Source: Fidelibacterota bacterium (lineage in GTDB: Bacteria > Fidelibacterota > UBA2242 > JAFGTP01). From it: a DNA stretch of 64,000 nt. The position numbers were made by a program, and so were the translations under genes. The number at the start of each line of letters is the position of its first letter. The first letter of the stretch is position 1. The stretch lies in NCBI GenBank assembly GCA_016934035.1, contig JAFGTP010000004.1:1-64000 (forward strand), read 5' to 3'. The notes below the pieces were generated by a model, which saw nothing but the letters and a program-made list of their open reading frames with translations, had not been told where the DNA came from and did not search any database. Of this stretch, positions 3,280 through 45,229 are shown piece after piece.

Positions 3280-7119
<3,840 letters not shown>

Positions 7120-7130
7120 CTAATTTCTTT

Positions 7131-8351: not shown

Positions 8352-8400
8352 AACTCCTCAAAGTACGGTATTTTTTTACATCAAATCCAAAATCGATTTA

Positions 8401-10377: not shown

Positions 10378-10393
10378 TGTTTTTTTTCTTCCT

Positions 10394-12724: not shown

Positions 12725-12728
12725 CTGT

Positions 12729-13931: not shown

Positions 13932-13932
13932 T

Positions 13933-16877: not shown

Positions 16878-19280
16878 TTATTTAACCAGCATCATCTTTT
16901 TAACGGCTTCATGCTTGCCTGCTGTGAGTTTATAAAAATATACACCACTGGCCAGTTTGGAGCCATCAAAAGTCATTCGATGGGCACCTGCCACCATTTC
17001 CTGGTTGGCGATGAGTTTTTCTACCAGTTCACCCCGCAGGTTGTAGACAAACAAACTGACTTTATCATGCCGCGGAATATAGTAATTGATAACAGTTGTA
17101 GGGTTAAAAGGATTTGGATAGTTCTGTTTTAATTCAAATTTTTCTGCAACAATTTCTTCCTCAATGGCTGTTGGGGCCTGAGTGGTATCAATATAGATCA
17201 CAGAAGCTGCACCTTTGATACCAGCATCATTGGTACCGCAAATACCCAGCCATCTGACGCCTTCCGGAGGTGTAATGGTAAAACTACCACCGGTTACACC
17301 CGTCATAACTTCTTCAAAAGGTACTATGGCTGCATCGTCAAAGAAGACTTCGCCTTTGCAGGGGAAATTGACCGGATAGTTGCTGCCAACACCGACCTGA
17401 AAATAATGTCCCCATCCTTTCCAGAAGACATCATTGGGTGTAAAGGGATAAGCCTGTTCTTCCCAGCCATCGCTGGTGCCATAACCTCTGTCATATCCCA
17501 GAGCAAAGATTTTTTCATAATGGAAAGTATCCCAGTAATATCTTGGGAAAATATAGACACCGGTAATATTCAGGGAATCTTCCGGAGTCGGATCGTTATT
17601 GAAGACATTTTCATTGTCATCGGGAAGGACTTTATGAGTTCTATCCAGACCGATTTCAATGTTACTGTAATTGGCCATTACTCTATAAAGGTAAATGTTT
17701 GTTACATCCGGGAGTACACCGCCGCCGGGATAATATTGTCCCCAGGCTGCACAGACACCTTTGGGCTGATTGTCCGGATCTTCAGGGCCGATATAAACAC
17801 ATCCGGAACCGTCTATTCCCATTCCCTGGTCGGGAGTCAACCATGCCATGTAGGGATGATCAAAAGCATCAGGCTGTGCTTCAGACCGTTCATAAGCTCT
17901 CCAACTGGCCAGCTGACCGGTACTGTCGGCTTCTTCAAAGTGAGGATTGCCAATAATATTCTGATCGTCTGTCCATATCAAAGGTTCCTGAAGGACTGTA
18001 TAAGTGACGCCTTCTTCTGCATCAAAATTTATCGTATATTCACCGGATTCATTTTTTACAATACTGTAATCATTATTTATCATGCTGGGGGTTTTACCCA
18101 AGGGCTGACAATTCACATTATCAATCCAGACCGTCATCAGTGAATCGGCATGGCCCTTGCCAACACCGTGTAATTCAATTCTGAAAATATTGGGCAGACT
18201 TTGATAATCGGTTGGATAGATAATGGTATCTTTCAATGTAATCCAGCCGTTGGTGCTTCCTGTCTCATCCAGTCTTTCATCAGTATTTTCCAGCAAAGTG
18301 GATTCAATGTGGTACCATCCTTCGACAAACTGGATTTCATGATTATAGAAATGTTCGGCTTTGATATCCATGGAAACCTCATAGATATATCCCAGTAAGA
18401 ACGGAAAATCCGTACACCAGGCATACCAGTCGTCAGAACCGGTCGTATCATCTTCAAACTGCTGAATTTTGACACATTTCGTGCCATTGACGCCTTCACC
18501 ATCAACATAGGCATAATTGGTACTGTCTTCAGCATCATTGGCATAGCCAATCAGGCCAAGGGCGGTGTACCAGCCTTTAGGGGCAAAATCATTGTCCAGG
18601 GCTGCTTCTTCAAAATTTCCATTGACAATGTCTTCGATGGGTTCTTTGGTTTGCTCGATCGTTATATCATCGATCCAGACTTTTCCGGAACCTTTCATTC
18701 CAAATCCAATGTAAAAGCTGGCATCCATCCAGTTGAAAATATATTCTTTCTTTTCCCAACCGTCACTGAGCCCTGTCCATTCATCCTGTTCATATCCGTC
18801 ATACAGTGAGAACCCCCACCAGGCATTACCTTCGGTGATTTCATATTTTGTCCAGAAAGTCACTTTGTATTCGGCACCTAATTCCATATTTTCAGGAATG
18901 ATATCCATTTCCATACCGCCATGGAACCAGATTTCTTCAAAATTATTGGCCATAAACAATGACCGTGTACCTTCATGGGCGTCGTCACTTACAACTGACA
19001 TATTGTTGTAAATGGTTGCGCTGCCATCAGGATGGTCAGCTCTGAAAATTGTATCACCTTCAGAAGTGATAAAAGTATCCGGAGCCATATCGCTCCAAAG
19101 TGCATTTCCAATCCAATTAAAATCTTCGCCTTCAACGGGAATTGTGTTTACGTCCGTTGAATCAGTTTCAAAACCATATTGAAAAGGTACATCGCCAACA
19201 TCTTTGACATCGGCGAAGGAAACCGTAAAGCATACTACCAGTACCAATAATAGGCTTGCAATTCGTAACAAATTTTTCAT
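16878..19280 (-). CDS. Large secreted CBM-like protein with type IX-like sorting domain
   Basis: The start at 19280 (800 residues) is preferred because AAGGAGGAAAAAACG precedes it and a signal peptide (MKNLLRIASLLLVLVVCFTVSFA) follows. The protein appears to contain at least three jelly-roll modules of the CBM4/9-like type, each opening with a GNFEE- or GNPHFEE-like segment and containing aromatic-rich strands. The C-terminal ~85 residues are a NYPNPFNP sorting domain ending in KKMMLVK. No catalytic residues are recognised. It is probably a surface glycan-binding protein exported with the PorV-like system encoded 135 nt upstream. It is rich in acidic residues and tryptophan. Exact CBM family is not assignable by eye. 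Confidence 0.75.
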   Translation of the reverse strand: MKNLLRIASLLLVLVVCFTVSFADVKDVGDVPFQYGFETDSTDVNTIPVEGEDFNWIGNALWSDMAPDTFITSEGDTIFRADHPDGSATIYNNMSVVSDDAHEGTRSLFMANNFEEIWFHGGMEMDIIPENMELGAEYKVTFWTKYEITEGNAWWGFSLYDGYEQDEWTGLSDGWEKKEYIFNWMDASFYIGFGMKGSGKVWIDDITIEQTKEPIEDIVNGNFEEAALDNDFAPKGWYTALGLIGYANDAEDSTNYAYVDGEGVNGTKCVKIQQFEDDTTGSDDWYAWCTDFPFLLGYIYEVSMDIKAEHFYNHEIQFVEGWYHIESTLLENTDERLDETGSTNGWITLKDTIIYPTDYQSLPNIFRIELHGVGKGHADSLMTVWIDNVNCQPLGKTPSMINNDYSIVKNESGEYTINFDAEEGVTYTVLQEPLIWTDDQNIIGNPHFEEADSTGQLASWRAYERSEAQPDAFDHPYMAWLTPDQGMGIDGSGCVYIGPEDPDNQPKGVCAAWGQYYPGGGVLPDVTNIYLYRVMANYSNIEIGLDRTHKVLPDDNENVFNNDPTPEDSLNITGVYIFPRYYWDTFHYEKIFALGYDRGYGTSDGWEEQAYPFTPNDVFWKGWGHYFQVGVGSNYPVNFPCKGEVFFDDAAIVPFEEVMTGVTGGSFTITPPEGVRWLGICGTNDAGIKGAASVIYIDTTQAPTAIEEEIVAEKFELKQNYPNPFNPTTVINYYIPRHDKVSLFVYNLRGELVEKLIANQEMVAGAHRMTFDGSKLASGVYFYKLTAGKHEAVKKMMLVK

Positions 19281-19415
19281 CGTTTTTTCCTCCTTAAAGT
19301 TGTTTAACACACATTTTTTTTATTCGAAAACATAGCACATTCAATTTTCTGAGATCATCCCAGCGAGCCATTGGACTAGATTTATCCATTGACCCAGTCA
19401 AAGCATTCGGAAAAT

Positions 19416-20387
19416 TCAAAGTCCGAATCCCAATGAGAACTTGTGGATACTTCCAATAATCCCAAAAGGCGTAAAGGAATAACCGAAGCGCATTTGCTTG
19501 CCCATCATGGTATTGCTGAGTCCCATACCAAAAGTCGCCCCCTGTTCTCCGGACGAAAATTTATACCCGCATCTCAGGTCGATGAGACTATTGTAACTGT
19601 ATTCCACACCGATCTGGGCTTTTTCCTGTTCATCCACACACTTGTTCCAGTTAATGGCCAGCGCCAGCCGGTCATTTTCCGTGAAAAGGCCGTAAACAGG
19701 ACGGGTCGCACCAATTGTATAATTCAAGGGCAAGCCATAACCTTCTTTGGCATAAGTTACCTGGGGGCCAAAGTTTCTGATTGTTACCGCGATAATCGTA
19801 CCTTCTAAAATTCCGGGCAAAGCGGAATTGTATTGCAACCCAATATCTCCGGACCATGAAAGTTCACTGTACATATCGCTGACCATATGCAGGTTCAGCA
19901 ATCGTGCAGTGAAGCCCACTTTGAACTTGTCCGTATAATTTCTCGCATAGGTCAATCCATAAGCATATTTACCGACGGAAAAATATTCACCGGTCCCTTC
20001 AGGCTGCAAAGGAGTCCGGACTTTCATCTCATCCGTGGTCAAGGCCAGCAGAGAAATTGCAATTGCGTGGTGTCCCAATTTCTTGGCAAAACTGAAATAG
20101 GATAGTCCCACTCCGGCCGGCATACTGGTATGACCAAATTCCATATCTGCCGAATTGATATTCATTAAACCGGCAGGATTTGAAAAGACGGCAGCGGCAT
20201 TATCAGCCAGACCGATAATTGCAGAACCCATGGCTTCCCCACGAGGCGTTGGCATCATTTTTAAAAAGGCTTCCGTCGTATTTCCGGGTTTATCATAGGT
20301 TTGTGCCTGTAGTACCCCAGGCAACATTGCAATAAGTGCAACCATTAATAAACCGACAACACTAAAATTACGTCTCATTTTTTCCAT
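19416..20387 (-). CDS. PorV/PorQ-like (UPF0164-type) outer-membrane beta-barrel protein
   Basis: The ATG at 20387 gives 323 residues with a signal peptide (cleavage near GVLQAQ). A TTG and another ATG nearby are alternatives. The segment after the signal peptide (PRGEAMGSAIIGLADNAAAVFSNPAGL) is the hallmark of PorV-like, FadL-fold outer-membrane proteins. The rest alternates short amphipathic strands and ends in LGFGL. In type IX secretion PorV shuttles cargo bearing C-terminal sorting domains, which fits the sorting-domain proteins on either side. The start codon lies just after the stop (20395) of the upstream sorting-domain gene, which suggests coupling. Whether it is the general PorV or a cargo-specific paralogue cannot be told. 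Confidence 0.75.
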   Translation of the reverse strand: MEKMRRNFSVVGLLMVALIAMLPGVLQAQTYDKPGNTTEAFLKMMPTPRGEAMGSAIIGLADNAAAVFSNPAGLMNINSADMEFGHTSMPAGVGLSYFSFAKKLGHHAIAISLLALTTDEMKVRTPLQPEGTGEYFSVGKYAYGLTYARNYTDKFKVGFTARLLNLHMVSDMYSELSWSGDIGLQYNSALPGILEGTIIAVTIRNFGPQVTYAKEGYGLPLNYTIGATRPVYGLFTENDRLALAINWNKCVDEQEKAQIGVEYSYNSLIDLRCGYKFSSGEQGATFGMGLSNTMMGKQMRFGYSFTPFGIIGSIHKFSLGFGL

Positions 20388-20394
20388 TATTCTC

Positions 20395-22314
20395 TCACTT
20401 AACAATTACAAATTTTCCAACTTGCTTAAAATTTTGATCACTGCCTTTCCCCTGCACAACAAAATAATAGATCCCGCTACCCACAGTATGGTTGTTTTTG
20501 TTCAGCAGGTTCCAACTGGCGATATTATGCCCTTTTTCGTCACGATCATGGTTGAGTTCATTCACCAGGATTCCATTAATGGTAAAAATCTGAATATCAC
20601 ATTTTGCCGGCAGGTTCATGAAAGCAATTCGTCTGTCAATCTCATACCAGTCATCTCTCAAATCCTGGGTTGGATATTCCCAGGCCGGACTGTGTGAATA
20701 ATCCATGTCCGCCCGGTAAGGATTCGGTACTACATAAACCTCGTCATTGCCGGAATCTTCAGGACTCGGCCCTGGGACAGTGCTCTTCACCAAAAAGGAT
20801 TTCGGTGATTCGAGTGGGCCGATTCCTGAAGAATCATCACGAAGATCTATAGAGGTCACTGTGTACCAATATCTGATACCGTTCTTCAGTCCGGTATCGG
20901 TATAGTCAAATTCAAGTCCGGTATCATAGCCGCTGCCATTAATACTGTCAAATTGGGCAATCAATGTCCAGGGGCCATATTCGCTCTCTTCACTGCGATA
21001 GACTTTAAATCCATCGAAATCTCGGGTGATACCGTCAATACGGGAATTATCCACCGTTTCCACAGGATCATAGCCTTCGTAATCCTCTTTCCAGCGCCAA
21101 TCGATTTTGATACCGTGGGATACCGGCCCCAGTTCAAATTTTGGCGGATTGGGCGCTTTAGGCACCTGGAAATCAGCACTGTAAAGGGAACGGGCGGCCT
21201 TGATATTTTCACGGAGATCAATAATACCATTACCACCGGCAATGGCACAGGTAATACGAATCGTATCACCGGGGGCCAGGGTAGCATAAGGCCCTTTGGC
21301 GATCAGTCCGCGCATACTTCCCGTAATCTGGTCACTGTAAGTACGGTCAATTTCATTCTTTGACATTTCTGTATAAAATTCGCTGTTAATATGAGGATCT
21401 TTGGGGCCTCCCTCCCAGCTCCAAAATCTTGTATTCAAACCCTCAATTGTCACACTGCCGCCGGGAAGTGCAATGCCCAGGACTTCAAAGCCGACCAGTT
21501 CATTATTGGGAAAGTCATCACTGCCTGTGCCGGGATGATCACCCTGGACCATGAATTTTCCATCTTCATCCCAATAGGAAATATCGTCACCCAGTGTAAT
21601 ACCTTTTGAAAAATCACCACTGTGGGGATCAGAATAAATGCCCAGATAAAGTTGTTCCCAATCAAATTCATTTTCATTGATAATAAAATAATCGATAAAA
21701 ATAATATCATTGTACCATTCATTGTCCCAGGCAAAAGAGCGCTGAATTACATGGGCATCCATCGGTTCGTGCAGTTTAAAAATTTCCGGTGCTTCCGGTG
21801 TGGAAAAGGTCACGACATTGTCATAAAACTGACAGATCAGGTCCTCCTGGGAAATGGGAAAGTAGTTATCTGAAAGAGTACCATCTTCATTGAAAAAATC
21901 CACCACAGCATTGGGATTGATATCCGGGTTCTGCTTTTCAAAAATGCTGGTACTGTACATGATATGTTTCGGGTTATATTGGGGTGCAAATTCAAAATAA
22001 TCTCCGCCCGGAGTTTTGGTGTCATTATAGGCGCCGGAAACACTACACAGAGTGTCACCGTTAACAATGGCGCCAATCCAAATGCCATGATAAGCCAGGA
22101 AGGTATTATTACTGGACTTTGGAAAAATCAGAGCATGCGACATACCGCTCTGGCCAAAATAGGCTGCAGCACTGTTTCCGACATTTCCCACGGCCAATTT
22201 TACATTATTGATCTCGTGATAGCGAAAATCGACGTTTGCCGGCGGATAAACTTCCTGGCCGGAAAGGAGGATTATGAATGAAAGAATGGTTAAGGTTGTT
22301 CTGATAAATTTCAT
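20395..22314 (-). CDS. FN3/sorting-domain secreted protein, tandem paralogue 1
   Basis: The ATG at 22314 gives 639 residues with a signal peptide (MKFIRTTLTILSFIILLSG). A longer TTG frame from 22341 overlaps the previous gene and is unlikely. The protein opens with YPPANVDFRYHEINNVKLAVGN, has a large beta-rich, aromatic and aspartate-rich N-terminal region (to ~400), then an FN3-like domain (~410-520; YWYTVTSIDLRDDSSG). The C-terminal region has a VPNPYRAD motif and ends in KFVIVK, resembling a type IX-like sorting domain variant. It is strongly similar along its whole length to the next gene upstream. No enzyme motif is seen. Likely a surface protein working with the TonB receptor of the same operon; function unknown. 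Confidence 0.75.
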   Translation of the reverse strand: MKFIRTTLTILSFIILLSGQEVYPPANVDFRYHEINNVKLAVGNVGNSAAAYFGQSGMSHALIFPKSSNNTFLAYHGIWIGAIVNGDTLCSVSGAYNDTKTPGGDYFEFAPQYNPKHIMYSTSIFEKQNPDINPNAVVDFFNEDGTLSDNYFPISQEDLICQFYDNVVTFSTPEAPEIFKLHEPMDAHVIQRSFAWDNEWYNDIIFIDYFIINENEFDWEQLYLGIYSDPHSGDFSKGITLGDDISYWDEDGKFMVQGDHPGTGSDDFPNNELVGFEVLGIALPGGSVTIEGLNTRFWSWEGGPKDPHINSEFYTEMSKNEIDRTYSDQITGSMRGLIAKGPYATLAPGDTIRITCAIAGGNGIIDLRENIKAARSLYSADFQVPKAPNPPKFELGPVSHGIKIDWRWKEDYEGYDPVETVDNSRIDGITRDFDGFKVYRSEESEYGPWTLIAQFDSINGSGYDTGLEFDYTDTGLKNGIRYWYTVTSIDLRDDSSGIGPLESPKSFLVKSTVPGPSPEDSGNDEVYVVPNPYRADMDYSHSPAWEYPTQDLRDDWYEIDRRIAFMNLPAKCDIQIFTINGILVNELNHDRDEKGHNIASWNLLNKNNHTVGSGIYYFVVQGKGSDQNFKQVGKFVIVK

Positions 22315-22322
22315 ATTATTGG

Positions 22323-24239
22323 CTATTTTACGATTACACATTTTCCGACCTGTTTAAAATTTTTATCGGCTTTCAGGCCTTCGACAACAAAGTAATAAAT
22401 GCCGCTTCCGACAGCATGATTGTTTGTATTCAGCAGGTTCCAGCTGGCGATATTGTGCCCTTTTTCATCACGATGATGTTCGAACTTATTGACCAGAATT
22501 CCATTAATGGTAAAAATCTGAACACGACAGTCAGCCGGCAGGTTCATAAAAGCAATTCTTCGGTCGATTTCATACCAGTCATCACGGAGCTCCTGGGTGG
22601 GATATTCCCAGGCCGGACTGGCTGAATAATCAACGTCGGCACGATAAGGATTAGGCACCACAAAGACTTCATTATCACCGGATTCTTCCGGTTTTGGTCC
22701 GGGCATGGTGTTTTTTACCATAAAAGACTTCGGTGATTCCAGGGGCCCGATACCTGATGAATCATCTCGAATATCAATAGCGGTTACAGTATAGTAATAC
22801 ATGAGACCGTTTTTCAATCCGCGGTCGGTGTGTGAAAATTTCAATCCGGTATCATAGCCATAGCCATTGGTGGAATCATACTGAGCGATCAGATTCCACG
22901 GACCGTATTTGCCTTTTTCACTTCGATAGACTTTGAAGCCGTCGAAATCATTGATAATGCCATCATTACGGGAGTTATCAACCGATTCCACAGGATTATA
23001 ACCTTCGTAATAATCTTTCCATGACCAGTCAATTTTTACACCATTGTTAATGGCTTCTACTTCAAATTGGGGCGGATTTGGGGAACGTGGAACTGAGAAT
23101 CCGGCACTGTAAAGGTTTTGTGCAGCTTTCATATTTTCCCGTAGCTTTTCGATACCCAAACCACCGACCAAAGCCGCTGTAAACCGTAAGGTGTCGCCGG
23201 AAGCCAGTTCCGGAATCGGTCCATTGGCATAGAGGCCGCGCATACTTCCGGTATTGTCCGGTCCGTAGGTTCGATCAATTTCATTTTTTGATATCTGAAA
23301 GTAATAATCTTCGTTGAAATGCGGATCATTGGGGCCATCGACCCAACTCCAAAAACGAGTATTCAGTCCTTCGATAGGATTCGGAACACCGGGTTTGGAG
23401 ACACCCAGGATTTTCCAGCCTGTTAATGCGCCACCGGGCAGGTCATCACCACCCGTGCCAACATGATCACCCTGGACCAGCAGGCGTCCCAATTCATCCC
23501 AGTAACTGATATCATCGGAGATTGTGACCCCTTTGCTGAAGTCACCACAATGGGGGTCCGCATAGACACCAAAATGGACATCTTTCCAGGCCGAGTCATG
23601 CTCATTGATCACAAAGTAATCCATAAAAATAATATTGGAATACCATTCATTGTCCCAGGCAAAAGAACGCTGAATGACATGGGCATTCATCGGTGTGTGT
23701 AATTTCATTGTTTCCGGTGCTTCCGGAAGGTTCTTCAATACTTTGTTGTCATAATACTGGCAAATCAGGTCATCATGGGAAATTGGGTAATACTCTTCCG
23801 AAAGTGTGCCGTCATTATTGAAGAAAGAAGTTACCAGGTTGGGATCAATATCCGGGTCTTGTTTTTCAAACATGCTCATTCGGTAAACAACATCACTGGC
23901 CCGAAAATCAGGATAAAATTCATGAATACTGCCACCGGGACTTCCCTGGGCATCGTAAGCCGCAGAAATACTGGCCAGTGTATCACCGCCCACTACAGCT
24001 GCCAGCCAGAAACCGCTCCAGGCCAGAAAGGTGTTGTTACTGGATTTCGGGTAAATGAGGGTGTAGGGAATACCGCCCACACCGACATAGCCGGCATCAT
24101 TACTTCCAATATTGCCAACGGCAAACTTAATATTATTGATATCATGGTATTGAAAATCACAATTTGGCGGCGGGAAAACTCTCTGCCCCGACAACTGTAC
24201 AGATAACAAAAAACTCAGCAGGATAACCATTTTTTTCAT
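22323..24239 (-). CDS. FN3/sorting-domain secreted protein, tandem paralogue 2
   Basis: This 638-residue protein has the same architecture as its downstream neighbour: signal peptide (1-18), a shared opening (FPPPNCDFQYHDINNIKFAVGN), a shared middle (AHVIQRSFAWDNEWY), an FN3-like domain and a VPNPYRAD C-terminus ending in KCVIVK. The two genes are 8 nt apart and probably arose by tandem duplication. Differences concentrate in the first third (for example PGGSIHEFYPD against PGGDYFEFAPQ). The TonB receptor gene ends 12 nt upstream, so all three are likely co-transcribed. No known domain is recognised in residues 20-400. A glycan-capture or surface-assembly role is inferred only from context. 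Confidence 0.75.
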   Translation of the reverse strand: MKKMVILLSFLLSVQLSGQRVFPPPNCDFQYHDINNIKFAVGNIGSNDAGYVGVGGIPYTLIYPKSSNNTFLAWSGFWLAAVVGGDTLASISAAYDAQGSPGGSIHEFYPDFRASDVVYRMSMFEKQDPDIDPNLVTSFFNNDGTLSEEYYPISHDDLICQYYDNKVLKNLPEAPETMKLHTPMNAHVIQRSFAWDNEWYSNIIFMDYFVINEHDSAWKDVHFGVYADPHCGDFSKGVTISDDISYWDELGRLLVQGDHVGTGGDDLPGGALTGWKILGVSKPGVPNPIEGLNTRFWSWVDGPNDPHFNEDYYFQISKNEIDRTYGPDNTGSMRGLYANGPIPELASGDTLRFTAALVGGLGIEKLRENMKAAQNLYSAGFSVPRSPNPPQFEVEAINNGVKIDWSWKDYYEGYNPVESVDNSRNDGIINDFDGFKVYRSEKGKYGPWNLIAQYDSTNGYGYDTGLKFSHTDRGLKNGLMYYYTVTAIDIRDDSSGIGPLESPKSFMVKNTMPGPKPEESGDNEVFVVPNPYRADVDYSASPAWEYPTQELRDDWYEIDRRIAFMNLPADCRVQIFTINGILVNKFEHHRDEKGHNIASWNLLNTNNHAVGSGIYYFVVEGLKADKNFKQVGKCVIVK

Positions 24240-24251
24240 CGATTTTCAGCC

Positions 24252-27002
24252 TTAATTAAAGTTAATTTTGATACCCAGGCGGACTAATCTGGCCCAACTA
24301 TAAGTATCAATTCCACGATAATAGAGCAGATCAGGGTACATGAGATACTGGTCACTGGTTCCGGATAAATCACCATAATCCAATACTTTTCCAGTGCGAT
24401 AATTATATCCTGAACCCAAATTGAGATTTCTGATGTTGAGCAGGTTCTTGGCTTCCACAAAAAATCTGAAACGAAATTTTCCCATTCTGAAGCCTTTTTG
24501 CAGGTCCGCATCAAGCGTGTAAATCCGGGGGCCCGTTTCGGTGTTGGTTTCAATGTAAATTTGGTTTGGAATGACAGGAGTATAGGGATATCCGGAATAA
24601 TAGGAGCCCAGCATATTCAGGGAGAAATCTTTCAGATAAGCCCCAAAAAGATTCAAGGGTTTTGTTTCAGGCACATGAAATGAAAAGGTAAAGTTGGCGA
24701 CATGATTGATATCATATCCAACTCTTTGCGCACGCACGGGTGGCGGTACGGTTTCACCTCTCTGATAGGCATCCAGTGCACTGAGGTCAAAGCCACGGGC
24801 CAGAGAAAAAGTATAATTTGCTGTCAGAGCAAAATAATTTGAGTATTCTTTTCGAAACTCGGTTTCAAAGCCACGGCTGGATCCAAACCCCGTATTCTGA
24901 TAAACCACGTTTATCGGTTCAGTCTCTGTCTGGCGCAGTCCGATTCCACCGGCATAATCTTTTCCAAAGATTTTAACACGCATCACATAATCTTTGATGA
25001 ATTCTGTTTCCACTCCCACTTCGTAACTGATGGATTTTCTCGGATCAAGGTCCGGATTTCCAATGGCACCATTCAGAAAAGGATCCAAATACATCTCCTG
25101 GAAACTGGGTTGCTGGGCAAAATACCCGTAATTAAAAAATACCTTGGTGTTGAGGTTAGCCGGAATCGACAATCCGAAGCGAGGTGAATAAGCAACTTTT
25201 ACACGATCAAACGCTTTGATGTCCGTGCCGGCAGCACGATTAAATGCTGCAATATACTCATCAGAATTGATGGTTTCGCCATGAATATAATAGTCAGCCC
25301 GCATACCCAGCAGCAGGTACATGCCGGCATAATCAATTCTGTCCTGAAAATACCAGCTGCCACGCTGGGGTGAATCATTGAAATACCAGCGCGTGCTGCC
25401 ATATCTGGGAAAATCACCGGGAAGCGAATCGCGGTCTGGATAGTAATTGTTATAGCCGGATATGCTCAGGTAGTTAATATTTTTATGCTGAAAATTGGCA
25501 CCAAATTCAAACTTATGGATCTTTGCGATATGCTTTACAAACTGAAAATCAAAGTCCCACACATCACTTCTTGAAGTGTTATATCCCTTGGTAACGCCAT
25601 AATCCATGAAGTGATCTTTATCCTCGTCCAGATCTTCTTCCGGCCCGATATAAGCCGGGTTCGTAAAGGACCAGAGGATATCCTCGTCACTGATTCCAAG
25701 AGAATCATAATAATGGATCAAGCCGGGAATTGTCCCCCATTTTGACCAAAGCTTATTTTCATCAAATCCCATTAATTTGAGATTATACCCCCACATATCC
25801 TGGGGATTTTTTAGTCCCATCAGTCCGCCGTAGCTGTCAACCCCCTGTTGTGATATGGTCAACCTGTAATAAGTGTTTTCCTGAAGGGAATGATTGAAAA
25901 TCATTGTATATTGACTGACCCTGCTGGTCCCGATGCCGACTCTGTCCGGAAGATCTTTCCAGGAGTAATTGTAGCCTTTGTCAAAGCTGTTTTGATATCG
26001 ATATTTGAGATTCAGTCTGATTTTTTTAGTAGGCTTGTAGTCGATAGCGGCCGAACCTTTGTAATTGGTGTGTTGATTATTTGGAATGGAAAAGAGCCCA
26101 AAATCTGTCTCGCCGTAATCACCTCCCATATGATGGTACCCGTCTTTCAGATCCGTGGACAGCGTTGTCGAAAAACTTCCGTCACCGGGCAGGAAATTCA
26201 AAGGCCCATTAATACCGAGATAAGTATAGGTGTATCCTTCATTTTTACCACTTGAAAATTGGTCGGTTTTGGTATGAAAATCCACATCGATATATTCTTT
26301 ACCGGATTTGGTGATAATATTGATAATAGCACTCTGAGCATTACCATAACGGGCATCAAAACCACCTTTGATGATTTCCACTTCCTTAATCTGGTTAATG
26401 TCAATATCCACAGCATTGACTCCGGTGATGGGATCATTGACCGGAACACCGTCTACAAGATAAAGCACTTCGTCGCTACGGCCACCTCGAACATGGATTG
26501 CGTCATCCACTTTGACGACACCGGCCTGCATGGCAAAAAGGTCTGTGGCTGAAGTCATAACAGGCATCCGTTCAATTTCTTCAGAACTGATCATCTGGGA
26601 ACTGTTGGCGGTTTTGACATCCACAGCCGGCCGGTCCGCAGTCACAATGACTTCCTGGCCACTGATGGCCTCCACTTCCATTTTAGCGTCGATTTTGGTC
26701 ATACGGTTACTGGAAACCTTGACTTCCCGTACAGTATATTTACTATAGCTGATAAATGTCACTGTCATGGTGTAAGTTCCACTGGGTACCTGGGTAATGA
26801 GATACATACCGTTTATATCAGAGGCAGACCCGAAGAATTCACTTTTATTATCATTGTTGACAATGACAACATTGGCCCCCATAAGCGGTTCACCCGTCCT
26901 GGCATCGGTTATCATTCCCTTGACGATTCCATCGGCAAAGCAAAGTTTGGTAATGATTAATATTGCAATGATTGTAATTTTCTTGATCATAATAAAATCC
27001 AT
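24252..27002 (-). CDS. TonB-dependent receptor with CarboxypepD_reg-like N-terminal domain
   Basis: This 916-residue outer-membrane receptor has a signal peptide (residues ~1-24), a CarboxypepD_reg-like beta-sandwich (25-110; GMITDARTGEPLMGANVVI), a plug domain (about 120-235; DAIHVRGGRSDEVLYLVDGVPV) and a 22-strand-type barrel ending in RLGIKINFN. It should import a substrate using TonB energy. Two ATGs (27002 and 26990) are possible starts and neither has a good RBS; the first lies 2 nt after the upstream stop. No SusD partner is adjacent. It is flanked by a lipoprotein gene and two FN3 surface-protein genes. The substrate is unknown, but the neighbouring glycosidases suggest an oligosaccharide. 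Confidence 0.9.
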   Translation of the reverse strand: MDFIMIKKITIIAILIITKLCFADGIVKGMITDARTGEPLMGANVVIVNNDNKSEFFGSASDINGMYLITQVPSGTYTMTVTFISYSKYTVREVKVSSNRMTKIDAKMEVEAISGQEVIVTADRPAVDVKTANSSQMISSEEIERMPVMTSATDLFAMQAGVVKVDDAIHVRGGRSDEVLYLVDGVPVNDPITGVNAVDIDINQIKEVEIIKGGFDARYGNAQSAIINIITKSGKEYIDVDFHTKTDQFSSGKNEGYTYTYLGINGPLNFLPGDGSFSTTLSTDLKDGYHHMGGDYGETDFGLFSIPNNQHTNYKGSAAIDYKPTKKIRLNLKYRYQNSFDKGYNYSWKDLPDRVGIGTSRVSQYTMIFNHSLQENTYYRLTISQQGVDSYGGLMGLKNPQDMWGYNLKLMGFDENKLWSKWGTIPGLIHYYDSLGISDEDILWSFTNPAYIGPEEDLDEDKDHFMDYGVTKGYNTSRSDVWDFDFQFVKHIAKIHKFEFGANFQHKNINYLSISGYNNYYPDRDSLPGDFPRYGSTRWYFNDSPQRGSWYFQDRIDYAGMYLLLGMRADYYIHGETINSDEYIAAFNRAAGTDIKAFDRVKVAYSPRFGLSIPANLNTKVFFNYGYFAQQPSFQEMYLDPFLNGAIGNPDLDPRKSISYEVGVETEFIKDYVMRVKIFGKDYAGGIGLRQTETEPINVVYQNTGFGSSRGFETEFRKEYSNYFALTANYTFSLARGFDLSALDAYQRGETVPPPVRAQRVGYDINHVANFTFSFHVPETKPLNLFGAYLKDFSLNMLGSYYSGYPYTPVIPNQIYIETNTETGPRIYTLDADLQKGFRMGKFRFRFFVEAKNLLNIRNLNLGSGYNYRTGKVLDYGDLSGTSDQYLMYPDLLYYRGIDTYSWARLVRLGIKINFN

Positions 27003-27004
27003 AT

Positions 27005-28489
27005 TTAGAAGGGTTTATCTTCTTCAAAATAGTCGATTGCTTTACGCAGAATAGCCTGGCCACCTTCTACTGTAAAAGGATAGAGCGGGAACCCGCAGAA
27101 TAGAATTCTGTAGGTATCATTATAATATCCGGATCCAACTGTACGTCCATTCCAATTCAGGGTCGTACTGTCAGTCGTGGCAAATTTGAAAACAGGTTCG
27201 GCAAAGTTGCCAAGGCCATTGATATAGGTGACGTCCGCAACACCTCCGATTGCCGCACTGATTTTTGAAATATCCACAGCGACAGAGTCAGAATCAAAAG
27301 TCACAGCCAGCATTTTATTGGGGACATCATCATAGTGGCTATTGATATGCAGGATTTCCTTTGCGAAATCACCGAAATATCGAAGTTCATCAACCACTTC
27401 GGGCCGTTCCAGATTGTCCAGAATTTCCCTGGAAGTGATCATGAGATTACCACCGGTTTCGACATACTGCCAAAGGACCGGGATGAATTCATTTAAATGT
27501 GAGGCCCGTGTATGTTCACAATGATAAAGCACATTTTTATATTTGGCAATCTCTTTTACAGGAACAACACCCTGGGCCGTATAATCCCACATTCCATAGC
27601 TGTTCGGAACCACACCGTCAAACACTTCAGTAAAAAACCCATCCTGTTTTGTATCAGAGACACCGAATCTGTCGTCATAAGTATCATCAATGACCAGCCA
27701 TTCCAGATCATCATGATCGGGCACATAAAAATAAACTTCAATCGATGCCGGAGTGTCATCGTCTTTATAAGCCGTGTTTCTTGCTTTGACATAAATTGTA
27801 TGGGGCCCTTCGAGTTCACCTTCAATCAAAGTCGGGTCAATAAAAAAAGCAGAATCTGCCACCGGACCCAGCCATTGACCATCATCTACTTTGTAGAGAT
27901 AATCCATGATTTCAGGCGGATTGGTGTAGAGGTTTGGATTGGGCTGGGAATCTGAAACCACCACTTTGATTCCCTGGTAAATATAGTCTGTAAAATCATT
28001 AACCAGCAATGTATCCCCCCAGGCCGGAAATTCAATACCCGTTTCCGGCGGAACACTCTGGCGGGTGTAGATAACCAAACTATCGCCAACAGGATCAATG
28101 TTCCCTTCTTTATCTTCCGCATAAATATGAATCCTTTGCCGATTCACAGTTTCCCTGGAAGGAAATACAATCAGTTCACGTTCATTTTCGGTATAAACCA
28201 TTTCCTGTTCAAAAACTTCTTTGGAATCCATGTACAGGGTTGCTATTTGATAATGGTATCCCTTGATAATACTGTTATCGGAAATACCGTTCCAACCGAT
28301 ATATTGCACAGATTCATATAACTGGTCGGGAGGTTCAGCAGCATTCGGACTGGGTATATTTAATACTTTCGTCTCCGGCGGGGCAATTGCATATTTCTTG
28401 CCGCTCATTTCAGGTTTTAACAATTCAGAACAACTGTAAACCATTATAAAAATAACAAACAATAGTAGTAATTTTTTATAACTCTTCAT
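27005..28489 (-). CDS. Lipoprotein with FN3-like N-terminus, function unknown
   Basis: This 494-residue protein has a lipobox (MVYSC, Cys ~20). The N-terminal part looks like an FN3/Ig-like strand pattern (YIGWNGISDNSIIKGYHYQI). The C-terminal ~230 residues look like an alpha/beta domain with glutamine-amidotransferase-like flavour (VLYHCEHTRASHLNEFIPVLWQYVETGGNLMI... and ILFCGFPLYPF), as in some uncharacterised surface lipoproteins. No active site is claimed. The start lies right after the previous gene's TAG, and the end lies 2 nt before the TonB receptor gene, so it is co-transcribed. Likely part of the surface module. Confidence 0.65.
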   Translation of the reverse strand: MKSYKKLLLLFVIFIMVYSCSELLKPEMSGKKYAIAPPETKVLNIPSPNAAEPPDQLYESVQYIGWNGISDNSIIKGYHYQIATLYMDSKEVFEQEMVYTENERELIVFPSRETVNRQRIHIYAEDKEGNIDPVGDSLVIYTRQSVPPETGIEFPAWGDTLLVNDFTDYIYQGIKVVVSDSQPNPNLYTNPPEIMDYLYKVDDGQWLGPVADSAFFIDPTLIEGELEGPHTIYVKARNTAYKDDDTPASIEVYFYVPDHDDLEWLVIDDTYDDRFGVSDTKQDGFFTEVFDGVVPNSYGMWDYTAQGVVPVKEIAKYKNVLYHCEHTRASHLNEFIPVLWQYVETGGNLMITSREILDNLERPEVVDELRYFGDFAKEILHINSHYDDVPNKMLAVTFDSDSVAVDISKISAAIGGVADVTYINGLGNFAEPVFKFATTDSTTLNWNGRTVGSGYYNDTYRILFCGFPLYPFTVEGGQAILRKAIDYFEEDKPF

Positions 28490-28491
28490 CT

Positions 28492-29103
28492 CTATTCCTG
28501 TTCAATTTGTAAATTGCCAATAGCTGTACTGTCATCACCCACCGTGCTGAAATAAAATTTATCACCCAGACGTCTGATTCCTTCATTGACATAATAGGTC
28601 AGATAAATATCGGTAATCTGGTTTTCGGCAATCGGAAATTCAGTCTCAATGCTCACCATGGTTTTGGCACCTTGGCCCTGATAGGTCAACGGGTATTTTT
28701 GGCCTCCGATTACAAAAGCAGTATCCAGTGGTGACATCTGAAATTGCAGTTTGGTGTACTCATAAGGTGGCACTGAACCGTGGGCGATTTTCACATATTC
28801 CTGTTTATTGTCCAGCAGATTGAAAATAACCGCCTTTGTTCTGTCCTGACGAAACTGGTCCGGTTCCTGATAAAAGTCCGTATAATTGGTATCATTGTAG
28901 AGGCGAAAATTGGTACAGATGACCTTCAGACTGTCATTTTCCTGAACGATGTTTTCAAAAGCGGTGCCTTCGCCCAGGTCATAGTTAAACCAAATTCTGA
29001 TTTCACCGGGTTTTGTTATTTCTTCCACTGTTGGGAATTCACAATCGGCCATCATCAGCCAACCCAAAATTGAAATTCCCAAAATTAGATATTTAGTTTT
29101 CAT
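28492..29103 (-). CDS. Small lipoprotein of the surface operon
   Basis: The ATG at 29103 gives 203 residues with a lipobox (MMADC). A GTG frame beginning at 29115 overlaps the upstream stop codon (TAGTG) and is an alternative. The rest is beta-rich with no recognised motif. It contains a KLQFQMSPLDTAF segment resembling calculations in DUF4382-like lipoproteins, but this is only an impression. Position between the phytase-like lipoprotein and the FN3 lipoprotein makes it a component of the same surface module. Function unknown. Confidence 0.6.
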   Translation of the reverse strand: MKTKYLILGISILGWLMMADCEFPTVEEITKPGEIRIWFNYDLGEGTAFENIVQENDSLKVICTNFRLYNDTNYTDFYQEPDQFRQDRTKAVIFNLLDNKQEYVKIAHGSVPPYEYTKLQFQMSPLDTAFVIGGQKYPLTYQGQGAKTMVSIETEFPIAENQITDIYLTYYVNEGIRRLGDKFYFSTVGDDSTAIGNLQIEQE

Positions 29104-29114
29104 TCCCGTATCCA

Positions 29115-30410
29115 CTATTTTATTTTAATTATTTTTATATTAACATCTTCTTTGATCACATCGTAAGTGCCGGCCTCAAGGTTCCCGTTTTCAATCCCAT
29201 AATCATGGCGTTCCAGAACGGCAATTTTATCATGACCAACCCTGGTTATACCTGCCACCGGTTTATCAAAATCACCGGAAATATCAATAATATCACGTTT
29301 TACAGCGAAGGACAATCCGGCTGAATCCAGTTCCTGGTAGGTCAATGTCTCCAGAGATTTTCCGAAAATACCTTCGGCCGTAGGCGTTGTCCAGATGGAA
29401 TCCGGCAAAATGACTTTTACCAGAAGATTGCGGACATTCCCACCCGATTTTCCATATTCATTGATAAAACAAGTGGTATCATCAATCATCACCAGTCCGC
29501 TGATACTGATTTCCTCTTCAGCAATACCATCATAATCGGCCGGCTCAACTTCATATAGTGCGCTCTTCTCCCAGCGCATTATATCCGTAGAATTAGGTTC
29601 CAGCCGCACAAAACGGCGTCGGTTTTTCATTAACTCCAGGGTATCGATGACATGAATATTGCCCACACTGTCAGTAGCTGTCGGATAATTCAACAGTTCC
29701 TTTTCAATGATTGCAACCAGCCGCCCCTGGCTGTCCATATCCAGGCCGGAAAATCCACCGTCACCTTCGCGCTTCATATAATATTTCCGTAAACCTTTGT
29801 AAGGGTCAAGACGCTGAACAATATTGGCAAAACCCCTTTGTTCGCCAAGTTCACCCCAGCGACCAGTCAATTGATAAAAGGAAGGTCCGTATTTGTCAGC
29901 AATCCAGAAAAAATTCCCATCGGCAGAATAGACAATACCGCCGGGATTGATTCCCCAATACTGCAGTTCAAGGGAGGAATTGACAATTTCAAATTCATTG
30001 GTTGTTGAAGGCAGGCCTGTCACCTTTTCCCCCCGCAATGTCAGAATCGGATTGCGCTCAACCACTTCAATCTTGTTTTTGTCATTCAATTTTATAAAAA
30101 CAATTTCCGGAGTAAAATCCGGTGCCAGAAAATTGATTTTTTCCAGAATGCCGCTGACGCTGTTGAGGACTGGTCCTCTATTGGTTACAAGGACATACTC
30201 TCTTCCTCCCATGTAAAAAATAGATGAAAAACCGCCTAATTTGAAATCAGACCCTTCCTGAAGCCCGGGCAGGTCACTCCACGACAATGTATAAGTCCCT
30301 TCAAAATCGGGTGTAGATATCAATGGATTACTACTTTCACACTGCATTAGCAGCAAGATTGAAAAGGAAATCAACAGGATGATCAATAACAGTTTTTTAT
30401 TTTGGTTCAT
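29115..30410 (-). CDS. Phytase-like (esterase-like activity) lipoprotein
   Basis: This 431-residue protein has a lipobox (LLMQC, near residue 24) and a beta-propeller-type sequence that resembles the Phytase-like/esterase-like family: an early GFSSIFYMG ... LVTNRGP segment and GFSGLDMDSQGRLVAIIEKE near the middle. A strong RBS (GGGAGG) precedes the ATG, and a good promoter lies at 30446-30474, so it opens the surface operon. In the family the catalytic role is poorly defined, so only the fold is assigned. Its last codons overlap the start region of the next gene. It may act on, or sense, phosphorylated or esterified glycans. Confidence 0.7.
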   Translation of the reverse strand: MNQNKKLLLIILLISFSILLLMQCESSNPLISTPDFEGTYTLSWSDLPGLQEGSDFKLGGFSSIFYMGGREYVLVTNRGPVLNSVSGILEKINFLAPDFTPEIVFIKLNDKNKIEVVERNPILTLRGEKVTGLPSTTNEFEIVNSSLELQYWGINPGGIVYSADGNFFWIADKYGPSFYQLTGRWGELGEQRGFANIVQRLDPYKGLRKYYMKREGDGGFSGLDMDSQGRLVAIIEKELLNYPTATDSVGNIHVIDTLELMKNRRRFVRLEPNSTDIMRWEKSALYEVEPADYDGIAEEEISISGLVMIDDTTCFINEYGKSGGNVRNLLVKVILPDSIWTTPTAEGIFGKSLETLTYQELDSAGLSFAVKRDIIDISGDFDKPVAGITRVGHDKIAVLERHDYGIENGNLEAGTYDVIKEDVNIKIIKIK

Positions 30411-30750: not shown

Positions 30751-31815
30751 CTAAATTTCCCAGGGGTATTTTATCGTCAATTTTGCATTATTTTTACAGG
30801 CTGACTCAGCGGCATAAATTCCCGGCAGCGTCATTTCCAGGGCCTCTTTAATTCCCACAGGAGACGGCCCTCCAATATAGATTGCATGGAAAAAGCTTTT
30901 TAATAGTTCGAAATTGGCACCACCATGATTTCCGATATCCAGGCGGCCCTGATTCTCAGGCATGGCCTCTCCCACTTCGAGATCCAAAAACTGTTTTTCA
31001 GCAGAATTATCAGTTGAATACCAATAGGTTTTGCCACTATTTTCGCCACTGTAATCCATGGTTCTTTCAAAATAACCTTTTGTACCAAACACACGGAAGC
31101 GATGTCCATGCACCGGGCAATGATTAATAAAAGAGACCAGCAGTTTCATCACCACACCCGAGGACGTTCGAAAAATTGCTGTCATGGCATCATGATGAAC
31201 AGGGTCATTGTAGACATGGCTACCGGTATCAAAACCTACAACCTCCCTGAAGGGCTCTTTCAAAATTTTCATCACCGGCCCCAGGGAATGGGTACAATAT
31301 CGAATACTTTCATAGCCTTCACGCCAGGGCGTTTCCCCAAAGAGTTCAGTCAAATCATGAATGTATTCCGATTCGATACAATAGGGTTTTCCCAATTTTC
31401 CCCGTTTGTACAATTCCTCCAGTTTTTGAACATATCCAAAAAAATTGGTGGTACTTTGCAGCATAAAAATACGCTTTGTTTTACCGGCTGCCTGCCAAAG
31501 TCTTTGGGCTTCCTGAATATCATTAACGGCCGGAACATCACACAATACATGGATCCCTTTTTCAATTGCCCGGATGCTGAATTCCCCATGCATTGGAGCC
31601 GGCGTCTCTACCAGCAGGGCCTCCATTTCCGAAACCCTTAACATTGCCTCAAAATCAGAATACAGGATTGCAGAGGGAACTAAATTTCCGGCTTCCTTCA
31701 AAGCCTTTTGCCTGTTATCACAGATTGCAACTATTTCCTCGGAGGGAAAATGGCAATTGATTAATTTTGCCATTTTGATCCCTCTGATTCCAAATCCTAT
31801 TATTCCAATTTTCAT
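30751..31815 (-). CDS. Gfo/Idh/MocA-family oxidoreductase
   Basis: This 354-residue NAD(P)-dependent sugar oxidoreductase has the Rossmann start GIIGFGIRGIKMA and the family segment LVETPAPMHGEFSIRAIEKGIHVLCDVPA. The dehydrogenase-like C-terminal half contains the EYIHDL and CTHSLGPVMKIL segments. It has no signal peptide, so it is cytoplasmic. It lies 12 nt after the GH109 gene, which belongs to the same superfamily. It probably oxidises or reduces a sugar derived from the same glycan. The substrate cannot be read from sequence. Confidence 0.85.
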   Translation of the reverse strand: MKIGIIGFGIRGIKMAKLINCHFPSEEIVAICDNRQKALKEAGNLVPSAILYSDFEAMLRVSEMEALLVETPAPMHGEFSIRAIEKGIHVLCDVPAVNDIQEAQRLWQAAGKTKRIFMLQSTTNFFGYVQKLEELYKRGKLGKPYCIESEYIHDLTELFGETPWREGYESIRYCTHSLGPVMKILKEPFREVVGFDTGSHVYNDPVHHDAMTAIFRTSSGVVMKLLVSFINHCPVHGHRFRVFGTKGYFERTMDYSGENSGKTYWYSTDNSAEKQFLDLEVGEAMPENQGRLDIGNHGGANFELLKSFFHAIYIGGPSPVGIKEALEMTLPGIYAAESACKNNAKLTIKYPWEI

Positions 31816-31827
31816 AAACTTATAATC

Positions 31828-33198
31828 TTAGATTAACTGGTCAAATCTCATCACCGGCAACTGGCGTTCTTTTTTCCACATACCCCGGGTAAAATCAGGA
31901 AAGGCCATCGGTTTGCCTTTTCTCGCAATGGACTTTTCACTCAGATCCGTTACGGCACTCATCATGGCAGCATCATAGACATCCATGTCGGGTTCAACTC
32001 CCAGCCGCAAGGCCCGGACCAGGCGAAAATCTTCCAGATAATCCATGCCGCCATGTCCGGCAGCACCTTCCATTTCTGTACGCATTTTGACCCAAAGCGG
32101 ATGTTCATATGATTCCATCCAGGAATCAATCTCTTCCCATCCATGATGGGGGCTACGGCCTTCAATGTGGATCAGGGGTTTGGGATATTTTCGAATCACA
32201 CCGTTGGTTCCCTGTACATAAATATCGCGGCTGTAGGGTCTGGGAAGGTTTGTGTCATGGGTCAGCACCACTGTTTCACCCCGAAAGGTTTTTAACATCG
32301 ATACAACTACATCTCCCAACTTAAACTGTTCTTTGGCTTCCGGACTGTCTTTTCCGAAAAATTTCACAGCCCATTCATGCAGACCTCTGGATTTAGTGCT
32401 CATTGATTCCAGGTATTCAAAATAATTTCCGCGATTGATTTCCAGGCATTGGGCCACCGGTCCAAGTCCATGGGTCGGATAAATGTCACCATTTCTCGTG
32501 ACTGAATATTTACGACGCCACAATCCTTCGCCCTCATTGGAAAACTTAATTTCCCGCAAATCGTGCAAATAACCGCAGCGGGCATGGACCAGTTCACCGA
32601 ATACCCCCTGGAAAACCATGTTCAATATCATCATTTCAACTTTATCATAATTGCAGTTTTCCATCATGATACAGTGCTTGCGGGTCTTTTCCGAAGTATC
32701 CACCAATTGCCAACTTTCTTCTATGGTCCGTGCGGCAGGAACTTCAACAGCAGCGTGTTTTCCAGCCTCCATGGCATCAACACACATGGGCACATGCCAT
32801 TCCCATGGAGTGGCGATATATACCAGGTCCAGGTCGTCCCGCTGGCATAGGCGTTTATAATCAGTTTCACTACGACTGTAACCTTCAGGCACCATCATGC
32901 CTTTGTCCTTATGCCATTGCTGAATACGCTCTACTTTTTCCGGTACGATATCACAGACAGCAACAATTTTTGCACCCGGAATATTCATCAGGTTTTCGAC
33001 ATGGGCACTACCCATTCCGCCAACGCCGATAAAGCCAATACGGACTTCTTCCAGGGGCCGCATCGGATAGGCCGGGGGCACAGCACCGCGCAATCCCAAC
33101 TGGCTGCAACTGGACAACATTGAGGTTCCCAGGACCAACCCACCTCCGGCCGCCAGTCCTGTTTTTAAAAAATTTCTTCGATCAATTTTCTGACTCAT
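31828..33198 (-). CDS. GH109-type alpha-N-acetylgalactosaminidase (NAD-dependent, Tat-exported)
   Basis: The start at 33198 (456 residues) is chosen because GGGAGGACCT precedes the ATG and a Tat signal (IDRRNFLKTG) follows. An upstream ATG would add four residues. The Rossmann motif is GFIGVGGMGSAH. The segments CIMMENCNYDKVEMMILNMV, FGELVHARCGYLHDLR and YPTHGLGPVAQCLEINRGN closely match GH109, the NAD+-dependent, retaining alpha-N-acetylgalactosaminidases (known family). A possible lipobox (MLSSC) lies after the Tat region, so it could be a membrane lipoprotein. It sits between the galactokinase-like gene and a second oxidoreductase gene. It would remove alpha-GalNAc from glycans in the periplasm or at the surface. 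Confidence 0.8.
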   Translation of the reverse strand: MSQKIDRRNFLKTGLAAGGGLVLGTSMLSSCSQLGLRGAVPPAYPMRPLEEVRIGFIGVGGMGSAHVENLMNIPGAKIVAVCDIVPEKVERIQQWHKDKGMMVPEGYSRSETDYKRLCQRDDLDLVYIATPWEWHVPMCVDAMEAGKHAAVEVPAARTIEESWQLVDTSEKTRKHCIMMENCNYDKVEMMILNMVFQGVFGELVHARCGYLHDLREIKFSNEGEGLWRRKYSVTRNGDIYPTHGLGPVAQCLEINRGNYFEYLESMSTKSRGLHEWAVKFFGKDSPEAKEQFKLGDVVVSMLKTFRGETVVLTHDTNLPRPYSRDIYVQGTNGVIRKYPKPLIHIEGRSPHHGWEEIDSWMESYEHPLWVKMRTEMEGAAGHGGMDYLEDFRLVRALRLGVEPDMDVYDAAMMSAVTDLSEKSIARKGKPMAFPDFTRGMWKKERQLPVMRFDQLI

Positions 33199-33223
33199 AG
33201 GTCCTCCCAATATTTTTTCGATT

Positions 33224-35013: not shown

Positions 35014-36045
35014 ATGAAAATATTAATAACTGGCGGAGCAGGATATATCGGCAGTCATACTGCTGTCGAAATTCTTGAGGCCGGGCATGACATCATCATC
35101 GTTGATAACTTATCAAACAGCAGCCGGGAATCAGTCCGTCGAATCAGTGAAATTACCGGTAAAAAAATCATTTTTTTTGAAATAGATCTTCGCAACCGGG
35201 AAGCCCTGGAAGAGGTCTTTGAGGCCCATGACATTGATGCCGTTATCCATTTTGCAGCCTTAAAGGCTGTGGGCGAATCCGTTGAAAAACCCTTGCTGTA
35301 TTACCACAATAATATTACCGGTTCCCTTATGCTCTGCGAAGTGATGAAAAAATTTCATGTAAAAAATATTGTATTCAGCTCATCCGCAACCGTCTATGGA
35401 GATCCTGCCAGTGTACCCATTGGCGAAGATTTCCCGGTAGCCACCACTAATCCCTACGGTACCACTAAACTGGTGATGGAAACCATACTCCGTGACCTTT
35501 ATATATCGGATAATTCCTGGAATGTCGTCATTTTACGGTATTTTAATCCCATTGGCGCTCATGAGTCCGGAAGAATCGGCGAGGACCCAAACGGCATTCC
35601 CAATAATCTCATGCCCTACATATCCCAGGTTGCAGTCGGAAAACTCAAAGAACTCTCAGTTTTTGGTAATGACTATCCTACGGTTGATGGCACCGGAGTT
35701 CGAGACTATGTTCATGTCGTTGATCTGGCTAAAGGCCACCTGGCTGCCCTGAAAAAACTGTTCGAAAAACCCGGGGAAGTTACTTATAATCTGGGAACAG
35801 GCCACGGCATTTCGGTGCTTCAGATGATCACAGCCTTTGAAAAAGTATCAGAAAAAAAAATCCCCTACAAAATAGTCAATCGCCGCCCCGGGGACATTGC
35901 AGCATGCTGGGCAAACCCAGACAAAGCAGAAAAAGAACTGGGCTGGAAAGCCGGGAAGTCACTGGAGGATATGTGCCGGGATACCTGGAACTGGCAATCC
36001 CATAATCCGGAAGGATATCAAGGAAAAGAGAATGAGAAGGGTTAA
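35014..36045 (+). CDS. galE: UDP-glucose 4-epimerase
   Basis: This 343-residue short-chain dehydrogenase-type enzyme interconverts UDP-glucose and UDP-galactose. The Rossmann motif is [19 protein letters not shown]. The catalytic YxxxK appears as YGTTK, and the Ser-Ser catalytic area as [23 protein letters not shown] precedes the ATG. It is cytoplasmic. It lies divergent to the galactokinase-like gene, sharing a 383-nt control region. Length and motifs fit GalE well. No galT is seen in the window. Confidence 0.95.
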
Positions 36046-45157: not shown

Positions 45158-45229
45158 TAACACTCCTTCGCACTATTTTTTTATAAACTCAGATTAGAAT
45201 AAAAAAAGATAAAATAGTTGTCATTGTTT

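Follow-up and report, generated by a model that had tools for sequence, protein, structure and literature searches.

In SusCD systems, SusD acts as a lid on the TonB barrel and delivers ligand to it. The operon considered here encodes a TonB receptor with no SusD, which raises the question of what takes the place of that partner. It lies at positions 19416-30410 of the window, that is, the whole 64,000-nucleotide stretch of Fidelibacterota DNA that was analysed, and it had been put forward in the initial annotation as a candidate SusD-free alternative to Sus systems, composed of seven genes, that could be a distinct machine for glycan capture or surface anchoring in its lineage.

The operon and its surroundings

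The seven co-directional genes were all recovered from the ORF list on the minus strand (Table 1). The gaps of 2-12 nt that had been reported hold for three junctions, whereas the other three overlap, since the distances from G1 to G7 in the order of transcription, with ORF starts as listed, are -1, 2, 2, 12, -19 and -11 nt. The reading of G4 as a TonB receptor was borne out by Pfam, which recognises a CarboxypepD_reg N-terminal extension (PF13715), a plug (PF07715) and a barrel, and that of G7 as a PorV-like protein by its match to the PorV/PorQ-family model NF033709, which with 155.5 bits exceeds the cut-off of 90. Likewise, the tandem proteins of about 640 residues are indeed paralogues, with 66% identity between G5 and G6, and the phytase-like domain of G1 exceeds the PF13449 cut-off (34.1 versus 27.6 bits). 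SusD was missing as claimed: PF14322, the one model used in this genome-wide search, had no match in the operon or in the whole genome.

Two descriptions stood in part. The three lipoproteins each have a signal peptide with a cysteine, but the residue at position -1 of the putative lipobox cysteine is Q in G1, D in G2 and S in G3, so that the lipobox is near-canonical in G3 only. Family models searched with G2 and G3 gave no match, and a PDB search with G3 found no relative. As for the FN3 domains assigned to G5 and G6, Pfam gave no match, although the family profile has a weak Fn3 structure match (E=0.007) and FN3-like strands appear in the predicted model.

The operon sits within a galactoside-degradation cluster. 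Elsewhere in the window, a 793-aa TonB-receptor-like protein without CTD (C-terminal sorting domain) or PorV partner is encoded at 46187-48568; close to it are a DUF2807 gene (44438-45163) and a gene (48577-49323) whose product has no match in Pfam.

Table 1. Genes and domains of the operon and of its neighbourhood (window coordinates)
Feature	Position	Strand	Model or evidence
G1, putative lipoprotein with phytase-like domain PF13449, 431 aa, accessory	29115..30410	-	Pfam
G2, putative lipoprotein, 207 aa, no family match, accessory	28492..29115	-	
G3, lipoprotein, 494 aa, no family or PDB match, accessory	27005..28489	-	
G4, module TonB receptor, 916 aa, core gene 1	24252..27002	-	PF13715, PF07715, PF00593
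G4, TonB plug domain	26337..26615	-	
G5, predicted surface protein with sorting domain, 638 aa, core gene 2	22323..24239	-	
G5, module-type C-terminal sorting domain	22326..22673	-	tail profile, 75 bits
G6, tandem paralogue of G5, 648 aa, core gene 2'	20395..22341	-	
G6, module-type C-terminal sorting domain	20398..20748	-	tail profile, 83 bits
G7, PorV/PorQ-family outer-membrane barrel, 329 aa, core gene 3	19416..20405	-	NF033709
Gene 105 nt downstream of G7, product of 810 aa with an ordinary type A sorting tail (contrast class)	16878..19310	-	PF18962 5e-10
Galactoside cluster: GH2 beta-galactosidase, ROK, DUF3472+F5/8 (type A-like tail), GH3, GH27 alpha-galactosidase, NPCBM protein	3280..16647	-	
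Two Gfo/Idh-type genes (one GH109-like) and galactokinase-like GHMP kinase	30751..34630	-	
UDP-galactose-4-epimerase-like gene	35014..36045	+	

A three-gene core recurs within the genome

Searches of the genome gave 26 matches to the PorV family and 49 to the TonB plug, and 20 regions around such matches were annotated with models built from the operon. The unit that recurs consists not of seven genes but of a TonB receptor followed by one or two CTD proteins and then by a PorV/PorQ-family barrel. The seven-gene set as a whole is not conserved: G1-G3 have no counterpart among the ORFs of the 20 other regions from this genome, and the core is all that recurs. Counting the window, 19 module TonB loci of one receptor subfamily are present, with a CTD gene near every one, and the strict TonB-CTD-PorV order is kept in 15 of them. 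In three others all parts are present in a changed order (L083, L087 and L088), and in the last the contig edge falls after the CTD gene (L096). If the genes were placed at random, and with an assumed total of 3800 genes, 0.4 TonB-PorV neighbours would be expected among 22 barrels, against about 18 observed. Tandem CTD genes such as G5 and G6 represent duplication and occur also in L087 and, among relatives, in L122 and L136.

The three module proteins have co-diverged as units. In Mantel permutation tests on 15 modules of this genome, the correlation was 0.79 for TonB-PorV, 0.80 for TonB-CTD and 0.70 for CTD-PorV (p=0.0001 each), and since all of the modules compared sit in one genome, species differences cannot account for it. 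Such co-divergence can be explained by duplication of the whole unit or by contact between its parts.

Several other arrangements were noted. A SurA-like protein (PF13624) is encoded between the CTD and PorV genes of one module (L077:3373-4761; C51), and genes of about 463 aa occupy the equivalent position in three other loci (L142, L145 and L135). An orphan G5 paralogue without TonB or PorV is split into two overlapping ORFs of 317 and 324 aa (L095:6795-8719; C7:254797-256703), and a relative carries its homologue unsplit, likewise as an orphan, with 651 aa (L226:4838-6793). A second pair also recurs (L094:2362-6487 and L089:4070-8227), in which the receptor (about 965 aa) falls outside the module subfamily and its neighbour is a putative lipoprotein (about 410 aa) with similar ends.

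Receptor and barrel families

A module-receptor HMM built from other genomes scored G4 at 510 bits and the 19 module receptors of this genome at 437-1150 bits, as against 77-165 bits for four full-length non-module TonB receptors, and partial plug loci were split likewise. Judged by these profile scores, the module receptor is a dedicated subfamily. Among the 14 NCBIfam matches of G4, none exceeded its cut-off and none was named SusC or RagA.

As regards the barrel, G7 falls below the cut-offs of the housekeeping models for PorV (NF033710, 54.3 versus 250 bits) and PorQ (NF033711, 69.9 versus 220 bits), and better candidates for these two roles, at 176 and 156 bits and also below the cut-offs, are encoded elsewhere in the genome. 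The best structural relative of the module-barrel profile is PorV (6h3i_F, 1.4e-32), followed at a distance by TodX (1.8e-07). In the PorV tree, most module barrels are separate from the PorV2 barrels and from the PorQ row, with long branches that make the deep order unsafe.

Sorting tails and secretion machinery

The module tails were compared with the stand-alone type A tails of the same genome, using a module-tail HMM trained on 100 tails from other genomes and a type A model scored leave-one-out. The former gave 65-162 bits for module tails and 16-38 bits for type A tails, and the latter 97-130 bits for type A tails and 11-33 bits for module tails, a separation favoured by the fact that the type A set was picked partly by its end motif. 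Genome-wide, 22 tails reached at least 48.9 bits, of which 21 lie in modules and one is an orphan. By this profile evidence, the module CTDs are a class apart from the type A tails that secreted enzymes of this genome carry. G5 and G6 had no match to the type A models TIGR04183 and PF18962, and the type B models TIGR04131 and PF13585 matched neither these two nor any of 44 module proteins, among which tail matches were to PorZ (25/44), PorU (14/44) and TIGR04183 (11/44, at E-values up to 0.01).

The machinery for exporting such proteins is encoded in the genome, namely the T9SS translocon gene SprA (700.8 bits summed) and the sortase gene PorU (680 bits against a cut-off of 420), besides a PorV-like barrel, a PorQ-like barrel and a PorU2-PorV2 pair; genes for TonB, ExbB and ExbD are also present. 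In one locus (L228:4407-10309; C50), a PorU2-like sortase-type CTD protein of 1632 aa is followed directly by its own PorV2-type barrel, which repeats the CTD-barrel order of the module without a TonB receptor.

Predicted structure of the CTD proteins

The model of G5 (pLDDT 67) starts with a beta domain, continues with an FN3-like domain and ends in a beta sandwich predicted with confidence, its strands lying at residues 526-636 and confidence being high from residue 561. The fold matches are headed by GH94, GH116 and GH15-type enzymes, which match weakly (TM 0.25-0.30) over the beta supersandwich, followed by FN3 proteins, PorZ and PorU. In the model of a longer CTD protein (1076 aa, pLDDT 78), PorZ heads the matches and GH94/GH149/GH15-type enzymes appear at a probability of about 1.00. 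A glycosidase-like beta supersandwich in the ectodomain may be taken from these models as a lead rather than as a result. Long CTD proteins of about 1000-1300 aa (L142:3209-6436 and homologues) are conserved across several phyla, and the three that were tested had no Pfam match.

The core in relatives and in other lineages

A scan of the genome collection with the G5/G6 pair returned no relative, and of 60 relatives only one had a close G5 homologue, encoded as an orphan where a contig ends. Since the fast evolution of the ectodomain defeats such searches, the TonB receptor was used instead. PorV-family genes were present in all 15 genomes tested across the phylum, with 2 to 26 per genome. In 13 relatives, a module TonB gene lies upstream and codirectional in 39 of 40 PorV loci, the remaining one being cut by a contig end, and the 43 module TonB genes of relatives are followed by CTD and PorV genes in 34 cases and by PorV only in 7, with 2 cut. 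The seven loci in which the CTD gene is displaced or unseen indicate that strict adjacency of CTD gene and barrel is not obligatory. In five relatives (L106, L116, L119, L131 and L133), TonB and PorV genes are adjacent and the CTD gene lies several genes upstream amid proteins with weak tails.

Named genomes were scanned with an alignment of six closer receptors, the alignment of all 19 being too diverse for a pattern, and this query contained TonB information only, none from CTD or PorV. The 80 loci obtained are those with the most similar receptors, the best match being to a Neomarinimicrobiota receptor (67% over the whole protein), and they come from Neomarinimicrobiota, Calditrichota, Ignavibacteriota, KSB1, WOR-3/Stahlbacteria, Delongbacteria, Balneola, Roseithermus and others. 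The 86 module TonB genes in them have CTD and PorV genes next in 64 cases; one locus (L180) is complete too, one has its CTD gene at a contig end and 20 are cut. L180 had been a candidate exception, discarded when a six-frame check revealed a CTD gene hidden by a shadow ORF on the opposite strand. Thus, among these most similar receptors, CTD and PorV genes accompany the receptor in 65 of the 65 loci uncut by contig ends. The cognate barrel, of the PorV/PorQ family, was directly downstream in 113 loci, with a median gap of 14 nt at both the TonB-CTD and the CTD-PorV junction, and the tail profile counted 1 to 18 copies per genome in 15 genomes of the named scan.

The order of the core, whose loss in relatives would have refuted the initial proposal, is therefore kept inside the phylum and beyond it, and the module extends over about ten bacterial lineages with many copies per genome. 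Its occurrence in Ignavibacteria, Calditrichota, KSB1, WOR-3, Delongbacteria, Balneola and Roseithermus shows that it is not confined to one lineage. PF14322 was absent from 56 of the 61 genomes in the phylum sample, and the other five had one match each. Of the original proposal, what survives is a SusD-free TonB-CTD-PorV core, well supported by conserved order and by the absence of SusD, and neither a seven-gene unit nor a lineage-specific one.

No description of the triad was found in the open-access literature that was searched. Passages of the Melioribacter roseus genome paper mention SusCDE and Por sorting domains with no link to PorV, and the main text of the Caldithrix abyssi genome paper refers to neither PorV nor SusD.

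Gene context and possible substrates

It is from the neighbouring genes that glycan capture by the module draws its support. In this genome, a GH9 cellulase-family gene stands beside one module (L085), a GH88 gene beside another (L091), and a third (L082) is adjoined by GH27, LacI and C-type lectin lipoprotein genes. Genes for LacI, a solute-binding protein and two permeases surround the modules of Caldithrix and Melioribacteraceae, LacI and alpha-amylase genes adjoin a Balneola module and, among 64 named modules, 15 have a sugar-ABC binding protein and permease beside them and 15 have a LacI-type gene in the locus. Other neighbours in this genome are mixed, including an M42 peptidase, a Na+/H+ antiporter and sigma-54 regulators, and a Pfam tally of the own-genome neighbours gave no dominant substrate class, so that substrates other than glycans are possible. 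Like SusCD-type systems, the module thus probably imports large substrates in general, and the ligand of the G4-G7 copy is probably a galactoside, as read from the genes around it.

Proposed mechanism and alternative explanations

The arrangement and its conservation are firmly established, as are the gene content, order, recurrence, co-divergence and distinct tail class, the presence of T9SS and TonB/ExbBD genes and the glycan-gene context. From these we infer the surface location of the module, the lack of tail cleavage, a physical complex, transport and a substrate. The reading that we favour, with a probability of roughly 0.65, is that the operon represents one copy of a TonB-CTD-PorV uptake module in which the CTD protein, fixed on its own barrel, would replace SusD. 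The CTD protein would be exported through the inner membrane by Sec and through the outer one by the T9SS (SprA), after which the PorV-family barrel encoded next to it would take up the module-type tail and hold it uncleaved, thereby anchoring the protein at the cell surface. Its ectodomain, which may consist of a glycosidase-like beta supersandwich and FN3, would bind the ligand above the TonB receptor and hand it over, and TonB/ExbBD would power import into the periplasm. In the operon copy, the two tandem CTD proteins would share one barrel, with G1-G3, the putative lipoproteins, as accessory surface or periplasmic proteins. The role given to the barrel is modelled on PorQ with PorZ and PorV with PorU: according to a review, the tails of PorU and PorZ are not cleaved but remain on PorV and PorQ, respectively, and protection of tails by cognate barrels is suggested there (PMC10202324). 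The PorU and PorU2 tails of this genome score closer to the type A class than to the module class, which renders the analogy with uncleaved PorU indirect.

A different role for the barrel would be that of a private T9SS shuttle, the CTD protein being afterwards cleaved and then attached or released, so that it would act on the same substrate as the receptor but form no stable TonB-CTD complex. PorV does shuttle type A cargo and PorP/SprF-like barrels are the cognate shuttles of type B cargo (PMC12618676), and the barrel gene usually adjoins the CTD gene. However, a housekeeping PorV-like barrel is already encoded in the genome, where many type A proteins lack an adjacent barrel, the TonB-barrel co-divergence is as strong as that of the other pairs, and several loci keep TonB and barrel adjacent with the CTD gene elsewhere; dedicated export alone is, therefore, unlikely, though it deserves to be kept in mind. 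It is improbable that the module serves instead for surface assembly or adhesion, with structural or adhesive CTD proteins and a TonB-like barrel that energises assembly rather than nutrient import. The long FN3-containing ectodomains, the T9SS-type tail and the anchoring of adhesins by type B CTD/PorP pairs (PMC9143113) would suit such a machine, but LacI, sugar-ABC importer, alpha-amylase, GH9, GH88 and galactoside genes adjoin the modules, and diversification of substrates would account well for diverged copies that number up to about 19 per genome.

The barrel could also be a FadL-type channel for a hydrophobic molecule, linked to the CTD protein by co-regulation only, as PorV belongs to the FadL/TodX superfamily and weak TodX matches occur. 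This explanation is very improbable, considering how much closer the barrel is to PorV than to TodX and that its T9SS-tailed partner is constant across many lineages. Slightly more remote still is a distinct glycan machine of this lineage formed by the seven genes themselves: their tight co-directional arrangement in a galactoside cluster speaks for it, and against it stand the recurrence of the core alone, the lack of counterparts of G1-G3 and the orphan state of G5 in the sole relative with a close homologue.

Comparison with known systems

Neomarinimicrobiota, Calditrichota, KSB1 and Ignavibacteria are common in marine and sediment carbon turnover, and their SusD-free import of large substrates across the outer membrane is poorly known. 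The chances seem evenly balanced that the uptake module, in which the T9SS-exported protein on its own PorV-type barrel would stand in SusD's place, constitutes a separate class of outer-membrane nutrient importer in the FCB group outside Bacteroidia; T9SS barrels would thus be permanent subunits of many transport complexes, and the CTD proteins a large family without a Pfam name. If this is true, the module, with up to about 19 copies per genome, would mark uptake loci whose substrates could be predicted from neighbouring genes, T9SS-type barrels would gain a new role as fixed transporter parts, and a large unannotated protein family would receive its first functional hypothesis.

The closest functional parallel would be SusCD/RagAB of Bacteroidota, with its SusD lid. 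In both systems, a CarboxypepD_reg TonB receptor precedes a partner presumed to bind the substrate at the surface, each genome has many diverged copies, and these are set in glycan loci with regulators and hydrolases. However, the module lacks SusD, its partner is a T9SS-tailed beta-rich protein rather than a SusD lipoprotein, a barrel is added as third subunit, and G4 has no SusC/RagA model among its NCBIfam matches. Polysaccharide utilisation loci similarly place uptake genes next to glycosidases, sugar regulators and importers, but here TonB-CTD-PorV is found in place of the SusCD pair and some modules have no adjacent CAZymes.

As regards the barrel, the PorU-PorV and PorZ-PorQ pairs of the T9SS attachment complex of P. 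gingivalis also combine a CTD protein with a PorV/PorQ-family barrel, and the module tails resemble those of PorZ and PorU. In contrast to them, the module pairs are present as numerous paralogues within a genome, a separate TonB receptor accompanies each pair, and the ectodomains are, according to the family search, neither sortase nor PorZ propeller. In the type B CTD and PorP/SprF pairs of Flavobacterium and Porphyromonas, the cargo gene is, as in the module, directly followed by a cognate FadL-family barrel, which is thought to anchor the cargo, whereas the module has a barrel of the PorV/PorQ family, a tail that is not type B and a TonB receptor as part of the unit.
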